From: Emcibacter sp.
GTDB lineage: Bacteria > Pseudomonadota > Alphaproteobacteria > Sphingomonadales > Emcibacteraceae
Reading direction: 5' to 3'
DNA: 64,000 bases
Assembly (NCBI GenBank): GCA_021774785.1
Contig: JAJFIQ010000028.1
Coordinates: 62,001-126,000, forward strand
In this document: one piece after another, positions 10,631-17,939 of the stretch
Layout: every line of letters starts with the position of its first letter
Position numbering within the stretch: the stretch's first letter is position 1
The notes under the pieces: model-generated
Database searches by the model: none
What the model was told of the DNA's origin: nothing
Seen by the model: the letters and a program-made list of their open reading frames with translations, nothing else
Translations under genes and position numbers: made by a program

Positions 10631-11364
10631 TAATGATGCTCCTCATCCAGTTGACGGGACAGGATAGTTCCGAATTCATCGGCAAAACCCTCCAGACGGT
10701 TGGCATAACGGCCAAGCTCGTTGCTGATCTTGTTATAAGCCACCACGGCAGGTACCGCCGCCACCAGCCCCATGGCCGTGGCGAAAAGGGCTTCGGCAAT
10801 ACCAGGGGCCACAACCGCAAGCGATGAATTATGGGTGAGAGCTATCTGTTCAAAGGCATTCATGATACCCCAAACCGTACCAAACAGGCCGACAAAGGGG
10901 GCCGTTGACCCCACGGTTGCAAGGAAGCTCAGATAACTTTCCAATCGCTCCATTTCCCGGCTGACCGTCACCCGCATGACCCGATAGATTCTATCCTGCA
11001 ATCCCATACCGAGCTTGCCGGCCCCACGGCCAGTGACGGACCGCTGCCATTCCCGCATGGCAGCAACAAACAGGGCCGCCATGGGGTGGTCCGGGTTTTT
11101 CTTGACCCGTTCATAAAGGTCTTCCAAAGAATTGCCCGACCAGAATTCCGCATCAAATTTATCTGCCTGAGAGAGTATCCGCCGTATACGCTTGCTTTTA
11201 TCAAATATAATAGCCCAGCACCATAGGGAAGACCCCAGCAATACCAGCATCACAAGCTGAACAATCCAATCTGCCTGCGCAAACATCCCCCACAAGGAAA
11301 AATCCGGTATATCACTGCCAAGGTCAATTATATCAACCGCATTTCCCGCTGCTTCTTCCGCCAT
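10630..11364 (-). CDS. tolQ: Tol-Pal system protein TolQ (ExbB family)
   Basis: MotA/TolQ/ExbB channel region ([25 protein letters not shown]). Confidence 0.95.
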
Positions 11365-11379
11365 TGAAATCCCTATCCC

Positions 11380-11835
11380 TTAAGTTAAACCGTTTAATTT
11401 TTCTAAAAATATTTTCGGCAATCGCATCGGTCTGTTTTTTTTATTCAAAACCGCCGCCCTTACCCGTCCTTTTGCTAAAACATCACCCGCCCTGCGAATC
11501 ACCTGTTCCATAATGACACTGGCCCCGCCAAATTTTGACAATCGTGTATGAACTGTTATTTCATCATTCAATACAGCCGACTTTAAATAATCAACTTCGG
11601 TCCTGACCATGAAGAACTTAAAGTCATCCGGTTCCTGAAATAGCAGCATTTTAACCTGATCTATGCCCACAAGTCTCAACATATCGGACCGCCCACGTTC
11701 CATAAATTTCAAATAATTAGCATGATACACAACACCGCCCGCATCCGTATCCTCGTAATATATACGCAGGGGCAGAATATGCTCCCCATCCTTGATAATA
11801 CCAGAATGTGGCAAAAATTCAGCCATTTCACTCAT
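11380..11835 (-). CDS. ybgC: Tol-Pal associated acyl-CoA thioesterase
   Basis: Hotdog 4-HBT motif [24 protein letters not shown]; upstream of tolQ. Confidence 0.93.
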
Positions 11836-12874
11836 CCAGAAGATTCATTTGCGTTTTATTCTGTTCAGAAGACATATCGACCCCGATATGATCATAACCC
11901 TGGGGCGATAACATGCGTCCACGCGGGGTTCTTTGCACCAGCCCGGTCTGCAGCAGGTAAGGTTCAATAATCTCCTCAATAGCGTCCCGTGGTTCGGATA
12001 ATGCCGCCGCCAGTGTTTCAATTCCCACCGGCCCACCGTTATAATTGACGCCAATGCATTTAAGGTATTTGTGATCCATGGCATCAAGACCGCGTGCATC
12101 CACTTCCAGCCGATTAAGGGCCAAATCCGCAACCTCCCGATTGACGCCGCCATCTGATCGCACCAGCGCGTAATCCGCAACCCGCCGCAACAGCCTCCCA
12201 GCAATGCGTGGTGTACCCCTTGCGCGCCGAGCAATCTCTCTGGCCCCGTCACTTGTCATTTCCACACCCAGCACTCGCGCCGCGCGGCGGACAATGGTTT
12301 CCAGATCATCGGCAGAATAAAATTCAAGTCGGATGGGAATACCAAAGCGATCCCTAAGCGGGGTGGTCAGCAAGCCCGACCTTGTGGTTGCTCCAATGAG
12401 CGTGAAGGGCGGCAGATCAATACGTACGGACCGCGCCGCCGGGCCTTCGCCGATGATTAGGTCCAGATGATAATCCTCCATCGCCGGATAGAGAATTTCC
12501 TCCACCGCCGGATTTAGCCTGTGGATTTCATCAATGAACAGAATATCATTTTCTTCCAGATTGGTCAGAAGTGCTGCAAGGTCACCGGCTTTGGAAATGA
12601 CCGGCCCCGCCGTTGCCCGAAAATTAACCCCAAGTTCCCGCGCCATAATCTGTGCCAATGTGGTCTTGCCCAGACCCGGCGGACCATAAAATAAGACGTG
12701 ATCCAGCGCATTATTGCGCATACGCGCGGCCTCAATGAAAATTTGCAAGTTATCGCAGATTTTTCGCTGACCGATAAAATCATCCAGCCGTGTGGGCCGG
12801 ATTGAGGTTTCCACCTCATCGCCCGTTTTTTGACCACCGCCAATCTCACGTTCGTCATTCCCGGAATCTATCAT
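11828..12874 (-). CDS. ruvB: Holliday junction DNA helicase RuvB
   Basis: [28 protein letters not shown] motifs. Confidence 0.98.
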
Positions 12875-13488
12875 TGACCAAGCTCCTTGAGACCAAGGCG
12901 GATAAGATCAGACACACTGGCCTCACCATCAAAAGACCGCGCCACGCCCGCTACCGCCATATAGGCTTCTGTCTGGCGATAGCCCAGATTGACCAAGGCC
13001 GATACGGCGTCCTGTATGACTGTATTATCGGTAGCTGGTGATACGGCCCCACCCTTCGCTGTCGCCATTGACGGGGTGATGGCAAAGCCTGCTACCTTGT
13101 CTTTTAGTTCCGTAATAATACGAGTGGCCAGCTTTGGCCCAACCCCTGTGGCCCGCCCGACAACGGTTTTATCCTGTGCCGCGATGGAATTTGACAGCTC
13201 GTCCGTTCCGACAGTAGAAAGAATAGCAAGGGTCACCTTGGCGCCAACGCCCTGCACTGTCTGTAATAATGTAAACCAGCTTTTTTCCAGTTCACTGGTA
13301 AAGCCGAACAGATGGATGTGATCTTCCCGCACATGGGTTTCAATCATAAGGGTCACGGCCTCACCCACAGATGGCAAGTTACCTAAAGTACGCCCGGAAC
13401 AGAAAACCAGATAACCGACCCCATTCACATCAATCACACAACAGTCTTCACTGATACTATCCACGAGCCCCTTCAATTTTGCGATCAT
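12871..13488 (-). CDS. ruvA: Holliday junction DNA helicase RuvA
   Basis: [15 protein letters not shown]..., HhH domain; 4-bp overlap with ruvB. Confidence 0.96.
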
Positions 13489-14069
13489 CAGCGCGTTCCC
13501 CGAAATAATATCTGTGCACCACCCTTGGATGCGTTTGATCGGTCTTTCTTCACAGTTTCATACAACGTCCCGTGAACACCGTCGTTATGGGCATGACATA
13601 TGGCCACGGCCAAGGCATCTCCGGCATCTTCACCATTGATGACCGCCTGGGGCAGAAGTATTTTCAGCATGGCTGATACCTGTGTCTTACCCGCATGACC
13701 GGAACCGACAACAGTTTTTTTGATATGATTGGGGGAATATTCCGCAACGACTATCCCCGCCATGGCGGGGACCAGAAGGGCAATGCCCCTAGCCTGCCCA
13801 AGCTTCAGGGTCGAAGTGGGGTTTTTATTGACAAAAGTTTCTTCCACCGCCGCCGAATGCGGCTCCCAATCAGTTATTACCTCCTGCAAGCCGTCAAAAA
13901 GCTGGACAAGTCTTTCTGCCAGACTGGATTTATCATCAGAATGAACAACGCCATTGGCAACATGGATCAGACGGGAGCCCTCCACATCAATGATGCCCCA
14001 TCCGGTTTTCCTAAGCCCCGGGTCCAACCCAATCAATCGCTGTCGTATTTGGGGGCGTTTCACTGTCAC
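13488..14069 (-). CDS. ruvC: Holliday junction resolvase RuvC
   Basis: [34 protein letters not shown] motifs. Confidence 0.97.
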
Positions 14070-14815
14070 TCGCTAAGCTGCTCCATAATTTCGTCAGAAA
14101 TTTCATAGTTACCGTAAATATTCTGCACATCATCAAGGTCATCCAGAACATCAATCATTTTCAGCAGCTTACGGGCGGCTTCAAGATCCACCGCAATCGT
14201 ATTTTGTGGCTTCCAGATCAGTTTGGCCGACTTTGGTTCACTGCCCACAGCCTCCGTCAGAGTGGCTGTCACATCCTGCAGGTCTTCCATCGCACAATAT
14301 ATCTCATGGGTTTCATCATCGGAAATCACATCTTCGGCACCTGCCTCCAGCGCAATTTCAAACATATCATCGGCTGATTTTGCTGCCGCCTCAAAAATAA
14401 TTTCTCCCACTTTATCAAACTGAAACGCCACACTACCGGTTTCCCCCAGATTACCACCGTTCTTGGCAAAGCCCGTGCGAATATCCGATGCCGCCCGATT
14501 GCGGTTATCTGTCAGGCTTTCAACGATAAGCGCCGTACCGCCGGGACCATATCCCTCATAGCGGATTTCATCATAATTTTCCGCATCACCGCTCTGTGAT
14601 TTGTTAATAGCACGCTGGATATTATCCTTGGGCATGGATTGTCCGCGTGCGGTTTGTACCGCCAGACGCAGACGGGGGTTGCTGTCCATGTCCGGTCCGC
14701 CCATCTTGGCGGCAACGGTAATTTCCTTGGATAATTTACTGAAAAGAGAGGATCGCTTTTTATCCTGCGCGCCCTTGCGGTACATAATATTTTTAAACTT
14801 TGAATGGCCTGCCAT
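14066..14815 (-). CDS. YebC/PmpR family transcriptional regulator / translation factor
   Basis: [40 protein letters not shown], full-length YebC. Confidence 0.96.
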
Positions 14816-15082
14816 GTATCTGTTCCTGAAAAGCCCGCTAACGGGCCTTTATACTTATATTTTAAAGGTTCCCAACTTTGATAATACACTGACCGCGTTT
14901 TGTGAACAGCGAATTGCGTTTTTTCAGAAAAAATCTGAGAATAAGATACCCGTAATGAATATATGATGATTAATAGTATATTATGACGAGGAGGCTTTCT
15001 ATTAGAAAAGTATTCTTGGAAATTTAGACTATTTTTCCAATAATGGTATACTTTCTACAAGATATAATTGAGAGAACATTCT

Positions 15083-15547
15083 ATGCAGGAAATCATAACA
15101 TATATTTTGGGGTCATTTACATTATTAGGTGCATTAGCTTGGCTTCTAAAAATTTGGGTAGCGTCTAGTATAAAGAGTATTATAAGTCATGAATTTGACA
15201 AAAGGAAAATCGACTATAAGAATCAAATTGAAATAAGAACACGGGCAAAACTTATAGCCGAGTTATTAGCAGAATGGCTTAGCAGTCCCATTGATAGCAG
15301 TCCCATGCTACCCGAGCAACGAAAAAGATTAAACCAGCTTTCTTTTGAAGCTAGCTTATGGCTACCCGAAGAAATAGCATTACAATTAAGTCTGGTTTTA
15401 CAAAAAAGTCCTAATGCTCCAAATGCATTTAATCTTCTTCTCAAAGTCAGAGAATATCTGTCCGGAAAACACAACCTAACATTGGACAACATCACCCAAT
15501 GGACTAGAGAACACGAAATTCCAAATAAAGGTCTGCCAGAAGAATAA
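15083..15547 (+). CDS. Hypothetical protein with one N-terminal TM helix and a helical cytoplasmic region
   Basis: ORF track start at 15068; ATG at 15083 (MQEIITYILGSFTLLGALAWLLKIWV) has upstream GAGAG. AT-rich; no family recognised. Confidence 0.6.
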   Translation: MQEIITYILGSFTLLGALAWLLKIWVASSIKSIISHEFDKRKIDYKNQIEIRTRAKLIAELLAEWLSSPIDSSPMLPEQRKRLNQLSFEASLWLPEEIALQLSLVLQKSPNAPNAFNLLLKVREYLSGKHNLTLDNITQWTREHEIPNKGLPEE

Positions 15548-15676
15548 GTACATGGAGAAGTTTGCATAAATCAATAGATCAGAGCCACAAATTGATTTTT
15601 TAATTACAATGGCAGCCGTCAAATTAAAGGTAATTTCCCGTCGAGTTTTCTATACCAGAAAAATCCATCCCCTTAC

Positions 15677-15762
15677 AAATATTGCGAAAGTAGAAAACCC
15701 CTACACCACTGGCATAGCCCCGTGCAGTCTTGCCCCAAGACGTAAAGGCTCTATGCGTTTGG
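15677..15762 (-). pseudogene. Duplicated 3' end of ymdB (remnant)
   Basis: Minus strand encodes KRIEPLRLGARLHGAMPVV*, near-identical to the YmdB C-terminus KRIEPLRLGPRLHGAMPEV*; DNA similarity continues past the stop. Confidence 0.85.
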
Positions 15763-15861
15763 ATTACTATGACATTGCGTAATACACCGTAATCCATCCA
15801 AGAAGTTGAAATGAATAACCGTAATCCACGGATTGGGAAAATAAATGGTAAGCCCCCTGCC

Positions 15862-16164
15862 CTAATTGATGTGTTTTTTATAATCCATTGAGCTATGTAA
15901 TATCCGATAGATGGATACACCGTCTTTTGTAGGCTGATAAAAAATTACATGAGACACAACGTCCCATGCATATAAATTAGGTCTTACGTGGCTGCAGTCC
16001 CTGCCCTGCTTATAATTTTCTGCTAAATTCTGAAAGGCGGTTACTATGTCGTTGATATATTGTTCAGCACGTTTCATACCGAAATTTTCAACACTATAGA
16101 CAAAGATTTTATCTAAATCTTTGTCAGCCGTTTTACGGACATAAAATCTTTTATTGTGAGGCAT
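15862..16164 (-). CDS. Type II toxin, RelE/ParE family
   Basis: YVRKTADKDLDKIFVYSVENFG..., C-terminal HVIFYQPTKDGVSIYRILHSSMDYKKHI typical of ParE; overlaps antitoxin gene. Confidence 0.88.
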   Translation of the reverse strand: MPHNKRFYVRKTADKDLDKIFVYSVENFGMKRAEQYINDIVTAFQNLAENYKQGRDCSHVRPNLYAWDVVSHVIFYQPTKDGVSIYRILHSSMDYKKHIN

Positions 16165-16408
16165 TCACCTTGCTTTTCATCCGCGTTAAAAATTCTTCTT
16201 TAGACCAGTTTTCCATTGTGGGGCTATTTTCTGCTTCATCTATTAAATTTCTTAGTTGTTGTAGTTTGGATTCTGCGTTCTGCTCCTGGAGCAATCGCAA
16301 CCCTGCCCTTACAACTTCACTTTGATTTTGAAAATTTCCTATTTCTACTTGCCCCTCGATGAAGATGCCAAGTTCTTCATTAGGTTGGAATGTAATTGTT
16401 CTGGACAT
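16151..16408 (-). CDS. Type II antitoxin, ParD/CopG (RHH) family
   Basis: MSRTITFQPNEELGIFIEGQVEIGNFQNQSEVVRAGLRLLQEQ, ParD ribbon-helix-helix pattern. Confidence 0.88.
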   Translation of the reverse strand: MSRTITFQPNEELGIFIEGQVEIGNFQNQSEVVRAGLRLLQEQNAESKLQQLRNLIDEAENSPTMENWSKEEFLTRMKSKVNASQ

Positions 16409-16419
16409 AGCTTTACCTC

Positions 16420-16447
16420 ATTATTGTAATACATATACTTACATAAT
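16420..16447. promoter_or_regulatory. Probable ParD operator (inverted repeat)
   Basis: ATTATTGTAA-tacatatac-TTACATAAT just upstream of the antitoxin ATG; near-palindrome with TGTAA/TTACA arms. Confidence 0.5.
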
Positions 16448-16497
16448 AGTGTTTTCCACTGGTTTTTACAAGATAAATAGATTTACTTAGGTGCGTT

Positions 16498-16583
16498 AAA
16501 TATTACGAAAGTAGAAATCCCCTACACCTCTGGCATAGCCCCGTGCAGTCTTGGCCCAAGACGCAATGGCTCGATGCGTTTGG
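16498..16583 (-). repeat. Direct repeat partner: ymdB 3' end
   Basis: About 86 bp matching 15677-15762 in the same orientation with roughly eight mismatches by eye. Confidence 0.85.
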
Positions 16584-17337
16584 CAAGGCCGGTTTTATCA
16601 TCTGTTTCCACATAAACTCCACACAGGGTTGCATCACCCAAAGCCGGTGTAAAGCGGCCCGAGGAAATCTTGCGGGTGAAACGTTGCAGCGGCTCCGCCT
16701 TATCCATACCGATCACACTGTTATAATCGCCGCACATGCCCGCATCAGTCTGATATGCTGTACCACCATCCAAAATCTGGGCATCGGCGGTGGGAATATG
16801 GCTGTGGGTGCCAACAACCAGTGACGCCCGACCATCACAGAAATGCCCCATGGCCATCTTTTCCGAGGTGGCTTCGCCGTGAATATCCACCAGAATAAAC
16901 TTCGCCACACTGCCGAGCGGATATTTCTTAAGCTCCGCCTCCACCGCTGCGAAGGGATCATCCAGCGCATTCATGAAAACCTGGCCCATAACATTCAGGA
17001 CCAGCATATTGCGGCCCCGTGCGTCCTGTACCATGACACTGCCCCGGCCCGGTGTGCCCGCCGGAAAGTTAATTGGTCTAATCAAACGCGGTTCACCTGC
17101 GATATGGGTTTTGGTTTCTTTCTGGTCCCAAACATGATTGCCGGTACTGATAACATCGACACCGGCCTCAAACAGTTCAGCGCATATTTTAGAGGTGATG
17201 CCAAAACCTGCTGCGGCATTCTCTCCGTTGATAACCACAAAATCCAGTTTCAGTTCTTTACGAAGTTCAGGGATTTTCTCTACAGCAAGCTTGCGTCCGG
17301 CACGCCCGACAATGTCACCAAGGTATAATAATTTCAC
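16522..17337 (-). CDS. ymdB: TIGR00282/YmdB family metallophosphoesterase
   Basis: MKLLYLGDIVGRAGRKLAVEKIPEL, NGENAAAGFGIT, STGNHVWDQKE, GTHSHIPTAD. Confidence 0.93.
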   Translation of the reverse strand: MKLLYLGDIVGRAGRKLAVEKIPELRKELKLDFVVINGENAAAGFGITSKICAELFEAGVDVISTGNHVWDQKETKTHIAGEPRLIRPINFPAGTPGRGSVMVQDARGRNMLVLNVMGQVFMNALDDPFAAVEAELKKYPLGSVAKFILVDIHGEATSEKMAMGHFCDGRASLVVGTHSHIPTADAQILDGGTAYQTDAGMCGDYNSVIGMDKAEPLQRFTRKISSGRFTPALGDATLCGVYVETDDKTGLAKRIEPLRLGPRLHGAMPEV

Positions 17338-17939
17338 GGCCTGTAAACTTTCTTTTCTGTGACAATAATATCAAGGGGTTGATCATATTTGGCTACGGGC
17401 ACATGTTCGCTTTTTTGTCCGTCAAAAGCAACACCGATTGCACTAAAGGAATGGCCTTTTTCACGGTAAATCTCCAGAGTGCGGTCATAATAGCCACCGC
17501 CGTACCCTAACCGATAGCCATTTTCATCAAAGGCAAGGCAAGGCACCAGAATAATATCCGGCATAACATAGATTAAATCCGAGTTTGGTTCTTTGGTGCC
17601 AAAGGTCCCGTCCTTCAGCTCCTCTACCATATCCCATTCCTTAAAGGCCAGATGCTGATCTTTATTGACAATGACCGGCAACGCGCAGCGACATTGGATG
17701 GCATTCAGGGCTTTCAGAACATAAAGACAATCAATTTCCGACTGGATCGGCATGAAGCCAGCGACAATATGCGGCTCATTGCTACTGGCCCTGATACCGC
17801 GCTGAACTTCACCGGCAATTTCTGGCAGCATTAATATCTGGGATGCAATCAGCCGGGCCGTCATGCCATCATCCTGTGCGTGAAGGTTTTTGCGGATAGC
17901 CTTCATTTCCTTTCGGAGTGCGGATTTTTTCTGTTTCAT
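17334..17939 (-). CDS. 5-formyltetrahydrofolate cyclo-ligase
   Basis: LRKEMKAIRKNL, PDIILVPCLAFDENGYRLGYGGGYYDRTL motif; adjacent to 6S RNA as in many proteobacteria. Confidence 0.94.
   Translation of the reverse strand: MKQKKSALRKEMKAIRKNLHAQDDGMTARLIASQILMLPEIAGEVQRGIRASSNEPHIVAGFMPIQSEIDCLYVLKALNAIQCRCALPVIVNKDQHLAFKEWDMVEELKDGTFGTKEPNSDLIYVMPDIILVPCLAFDENGYRLGYGGGYYDRTLEIYREKGHSFSAIGVAFDGQKSEHVPVAKYDQPLDIIVTEKKVYRP

Follow-up and report, generated by a model that had tools for sequence, protein, structure and literature searches.

The spacer between ymdB and yebC in the window, the whole 64-kb stretch of Emcibacter DNA that was analysed, contains a parDE toxin-antitoxin pair, a displaced second copy of the ymdB tail and a 159-aa open reading frame (Table 1). 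The ymdB gene closes one run of genes and yebC-ruvCAB opens the next. The YmdB protein is 81–91% identical in amino acid sequence to its counterparts in 13 members of the genus.

Table 1. Features of the ymdB-yebC locus (window coordinates)
Feature	Position	Strand	Remarks
yebC	14066..14815	-	Opens the yebC-ruvCAB genes and bounds the variable spacer on the right
159-aa ORF between distal tail and yebC	15068..15547	+	No family assignment
Distal repeat copy	15677..15762	-	Displaced ymdB tail: final 62 nt with stop, plus 24 nt
50-bp segment between 675-bp unit and distal repeat	15763..15812	-	Unassigned sequence; no counterpart at the G012 locus
parDE unit common to G012, 675 bp	15813..16487	-	Promoter-like site, inverted repeat, parD, parE and terminator-like end; wholly inside the repeats
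parE toxin	15862..16164	-	100 aa; PF05016, E 2.7e-17, near full-length; overlaps parD by 14 nt
parD antitoxin	16151..16408	-	85 aa; PF03693, E 8.5e-14; TIGR02606 over cut-off
Imperfect inverted repeat upstream of parD	16420..16447	-	Overlaps promoter-like site TTGTAA-17-TATTAT; unchanged in G012
Proximal repeat copy	16498..16583	-	True 3' end of ymdB: final 62 nt with stop, plus 24 nt
ymdB (TIGR00282 metallophosphoesterase)	16522..17337	-	Intact, 271 aa; Pfam PF13277, E 1e-100; NCBIfam TIGR00282 over cut-off

The adjacent parD and parE genes encode a ParD-type antitoxin and a RelE/ParE-type toxin that score above the curated cut-offs of PF03693 and PF05016, respectively, which makes the pair a type II module. 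Relatives of both proteins are found in the PDB, with 7ycs_A as the closest solved chain to ParE (E = 1e-21). As in chromosomal type II ParDE systems (PDB: 7ycs, 8c24, 3kxe), a full-length ParE is paired with a ParD, the genes overlap and an inverted repeat is located at the promoter; compared with these systems, the proteins themselves have no unusual feature. They are ordinary ParDE proteins, and the noteworthy part of the locus is the insertion scar. Presumably, the module is kept by addiction, with ParD acting as the repressor of its own promoter and as the antidote to ParE. Relative to the closest pair found, that of Emcibacter sp. OFTM146 (G012), the dN/dS ratios are approximately 0.02 for parD and 0.1 for parE, and both genes look to be under purifying selection.

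The inverted repeat upstream of parD is the probable ParD operator. Its predicted stem is weak (z = -1.5), and promoter-like matches are no commoner in the sequence than in its shuffles. A search for special structure in the flank running from parE to the distal repeat found none (z = 0.65), and no Rfam families were identified at the locus. Integron-type ends were set aside after inspection by eye.

The 159-aa ORF had no match in Pfam, NCBIfam, PADLOC or PHROG, nor in any of the 32 further genomes of the family or the 384 further ones of the class sample. Relatives at 30–43% identity were found on three viral contigs and three plasmids (Vibrio and Pantoea plasmids). Being peculiar to the window's genome among those sampled, the ORF is perhaps a second cargo of the spacer.

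The repeated ymdB tail

The two copies of the ymdB tail, each 86 nt long and in the same orientation, align without gaps and are identical at 79 of 86 positions (92%). The blastn E value for the pair is approximately 1e-31, which excludes a chance match. At the carboxy terminus, the distal copy reads KRIEPLRLGARLHGAMPVV and the proximal copy reads KRIEPLRLGPRLHGAMPEV. Five differences are coding and two lie beyond the stop codon. Three of the coding differences are synonymous (ATC/ATA, CCA/CCT and TTG/TTA) and the remaining two are replacements (P/A and E/V). The differences are scattered, and the longest identical stretch between the copies is approximately 24 bp. An earlier note on this DNA had described the repeat, at about 86 bp, and had read the distal copy as a truncated YmdB C-terminus with similarity extending past the stop, three of five coding differences as synonymous, and the interval as holding only ParDE and its probable operator with no integrase. 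Each of these points was borne out: the alignment places the repeat at the same positions, continues for 24 bp past the stop and gives the same count of synonymous changes, while the interval consists solely of parD, parE and their flanks. No integrase ORF was found between the repeats, and the neighbouring 159-aa ORF is also without a family match.

The sequence beyond the proximal copy differs from the sequence beyond the distal copy, as expected from an insertion and not from a plain tandem duplication. The signature at the junction is a 2-bp CC match and nothing more. Within the window, the ymdB-tail pair is the sole direct repeat of this kind; the remaining long ones are weaker (71–77% over 35–106 nt). 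When approximately 2.3 Mb of the window's genome (G000) were scanned for direct repeats of at least 50 bp and at least 80% identity at a spacing of 0.2–6 kb, few passed, including ones on the small contigs C7 and C20 and on C19. The repeat observation is real, and the scar is largely explained.

Transfer of parDE and the variable ymdB-yebC spacer

The G012 pair (ParD 99% and ParE 96% identical in amino acids) was the sole close relative found for the window's parDE. A scan of genome contigs with ParE returned the G012 record only, ParE relatives on plasmids were all below 60% identity, and none were found on viral contigs; phage records gave no DNA match to positions 15600–17400. The G012 match runs from 16487 to 15813 (675 bp, 95% identity) and is free of gaps. 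Between the window and G012, dS is 0.16–0.31 for parDE and 0.87–1.63 for ruvA, ruvB, ruvC, yebC, ymdB and ygfA. Since the parDE values are far below those of the neighbouring genes, the pair most likely moved horizontally between the two lineages after their split. In G012, parDE also occupies the ymdB-yebC spacer, but it is located behind ribH and a second ymdB tail is absent. The proposal in the earlier note that the repeats bound a mobile cassette is not supported here, for G012 holds parDE at the same position without the repeat, an outcome that the note itself had named as refuting. With both repeats excluded from the shared unit and no second tail in G012, the repeats are not the ends of what was transferred; they stem from something that happened to the window's genome itself.

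In other genera of the family, the gap between ymdB and yebC is mostly about 100–150 bp. Within the genus, the spacer is empty in G011 (141 bp) and measures 314 bp in G015. Its other contents are a ribH-like gene (G001, G012), a PEP-CTERM-like protein (G002, G006, G008 and perhaps G014), a DsbA-like protein (G009, G010) and a ParDE pair unrelated to that of the window (G007); the ribH, PEP-CTERM-like and DsbA-like names were assigned by eye from sequence. Given contents that vary to this extent across the genus, the spacer is a hotspot for repeated single-gene gain.

Several neighbouring arrangements were observed at this site. In G012 (L017, 3960–4675), a confirmed FMN riboswitch followed by the ribH-like gene lies between ymdB and parDE, and G001 (L024) has a similar ribH arrangement without parDE. 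In G005 (L019), flagellar-looking genes follow ymdB and yebC is found on another contig behind a DksA-like gene; there may be a rearrangement breakpoint at the ymdB 3' end. In the nearest relative, the contig (L029, G003:C12) ends within the final bases of ymdB, and repeats can cause such ends. A search of the G003 genome for a second ymdB tail found none.

Double tails were surveyed with a 31-aa query, which found a recognisable tail in approximately 320 alphaproteobacterial genomes; more diverged second tails would escape such a survey. Two tails were present in the window's genome and in G089 only, and every other genus member with a readable tail had a single one. No genome with two ymdB tails and no insert, the other outcome listed as refuting in the earlier note, was found. 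In G089, a member of another family of the order, the second tail lies behind the inner of two DUF547-like genes (L068, G089:C147, 6199–7618; family named by eye). The G089 tails are 93–94% identical over 141 bp, while their final 36 bp are 61% alike, and the duplication starts approximately 180 bp before the gene end compared with 62 bp in the window. The genes behind the two tails are paralogues with 56% identity, which argues against a simple tandem duplication. The outer gene is 97% identical to its G107 counterpart over the 253 residues available, and genus-mates of G089 have between zero and three DUF547-like genes at the ymdB site. From these comparisons, the inner gene and its tail also seem to have arrived from elsewhere, through an event whose breakpoints differ. 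The search for other genomes with cargo between ymdB tails that the earlier note had recommended gave G089 and no other, and there the breakpoints are different. The differing lengths of the two duplications, together with their rarity, argue against a dedicated recombinase.

Origin of the second tail

The sites at which the two tails differ provide a mixed signal. The proximal tail shares the G012 state at each of the three synonymous sites, and at two of them the distal tail shares that of G003, the genome whose ymdB is closest overall (83% identity). Where residues are replaced, it is the distal tail and not the proximal one that agrees with the amino acid of G012; the distal residues are an Ala that is typical of the genus and, at the other site, a Val that is a common residue. 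For three changes falling at random in the distal copy, the probability of all being synonymous is approximately 0.02, and thus the distal copy probably diverged while it was still part of a working gene. That the two tails are different alleles, each from a working gene, is the favoured interpretation of these few sites. The earlier note had raised this as a possibility, and the synonymous sites support it, although they are few: there are only five coding differences, and the replacement sites point the opposite way with respect to G012 likeness. As the sites are few and in conflict, and both tails are closer to G012 than to G003, they do not single out a donor. From the closeness of both tails to G012 it also follows that the donor and resident alleles were close or had been converted.

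The best reading of the locus, with a probability of roughly 0.55, is a one-off insertion of parDE with a long target duplication and a replacement ymdB tail from a relative. A self-contained parDE transcription unit was acquired horizontally in the ymdB-yebC spacer and would have come on incoming DNA in which a ymdB tail was followed by parDE. On one side, homologous recombination would have taken place inside the resident ymdB tail; the other side would have been joined illegitimately to the resident gene at a point 62 bp short of its end. The body of the resident ymdB would have gained the donor tail and stayed intact with parDE next to it, and the old tail would have been shifted downstream as a non-coding remnant. 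The sequences directly show the repeat, the horizontal movement of parDE, the hotspot and the lack of a second tail in those genus members that were examined, whereas the direction of transfer, the donor tail and the joining mechanism (homologous on one side, illegitimate on the other) are inferred. Direct repeats of the target flank the insert, as a long target duplication would leave them, and relatives, all of different species with one genome each, have a single-copy target without the insert, either empty (G011) or in most cases with other cargo. A ComEC-type gene is present in the genome and is weak backing for this reading, since the ComEC family is widespread, E. coli included. Of the cassette that the earlier note saw entering at the ymdB 3' end, the insertion with its replacement tail is retained and the delimitation by repeats is given up in view of G012.

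The most plausible alternative, possible but improbable, is that the ymdB 3' end is the attachment site of a tyrosine recombinase. The repeats would be attL and attR, flanking either a small element or what is left of a larger one that has lost its integrase, and the element would have brought the replacement tail. Toxin-antitoxin pairs are common island cargo. The geometry is like that of islands at gene 3' ends (SGI1 at trmE, islands at dusA; PMC8409611), with integration at a gene end and direct repeats on both sides, and a tRNA-Arg(CCT) repeat in the same genome has the typical geometry of an integrase site. Unlike such islands, the insert has no integrase, is 0.8 kb in length where an island is large, and has breakpoints that do not recur in other genomes; in the one other double tail among approximately 320 genomes, the duplication starts at a different distance from the gene end. 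The parDE pair of G012, in the same spacer with no second tail, and the scattered differences between the copies, with their short identical runs, also speak against attachment sites.

It is more doubtful that the ymdB tail was copied downstream within the genome, by tandem duplication and later loss or by templated repair, in an event separate from the arrival of parDE. While the repeat is short and local, and G012 demonstrates that parDE can arrive without a tail copy, decay of a useless copy should yield mostly replacement changes, and three of the five differences are synonymous. At one replacement site, moreover, the residue that is unusual for the genus sits in the functional ymdB and not in the distal copy, and the distal tail is not followed by another parDE. 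It is very improbable that the stretch bounded by the repeats is itself mobile through recombination between ymdB tails, as the earlier note imagined. Only parDE lies between the repeats, and 86 bp could allow low-level excision by homologous recombination; however, the unit common to G012 is the inner 675 bp with neither repeat included, and no other genome was found with cargo between tails at these breakpoints.

Comparison with known insertions

Mobile restriction-modification systems insert with target duplications of about 100 bp (Nobusato et al. 2000, as described in PMC3874152 and PMC1643837). The parDE insertion resembles these events in that a single addiction-type module is flanked by a long direct target duplication, in the order of 100 bp, and neither a transposase nor an integrase is present. 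It differs in carrying a type II toxin-antitoxin pair, in having the tail of a protein gene as its target and in the 8% divergence of the copies. Displaced 3' ends have been explained by homology-facilitated illegitimate recombination (PMC5361080, PMC3240628). As with the displaced 3' ends and orphan immunity genes of T6SS loci (PMC5361080), homology would provide an anchor on one side, illegitimate joining would close the other, and the resident 3' part would be pushed downstream. In T6SS loci the effector and immunity gene change, whereas here the end of a housekeeping gene would be swapped for an equivalent one.

On this reading, the locus is a legible record of the way in which one toxin-antitoxin pair may get into a chromosome when no integrase is involved, the housekeeping gene remaining functional because the incoming DNA supplies an equivalent tail. 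If the pattern held true in same-species strains, toxin-antitoxin modules would join restriction-modification systems as cargo inserted with long target duplication, and there would be a concrete route by which an intergenic hotspot gains genes. Only tentatively, and with more doubt than conviction, might it be proposed that toxin-antitoxin modules install themselves by tail capture with long target duplications as restriction-modification systems do, and that such capture recurs at the 3' end of ymdB in Alphaproteobacteria (the window and G089).

A further repeat was observed on contig C11 of the window's genome (791178–793948; L144, approximately 11178–13948). This 505-bp repeat (90% identity) starts in the 3' half of tRNA-Arg(CCT), and each unit is composed of the tRNA 3' half and approximately 460 bp with a 69-aa ORF; the units bracket one 389-aa serine-hydrolase-like gene. 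It was considered as a second long target duplication and was dropped, and is not counted as support, since partial tRNA-Arg copies beside the same 69-aa ORF in G008 and G014 make an island site the simpler reading. The tRNA-Arg site on C11 is likely such an island site.
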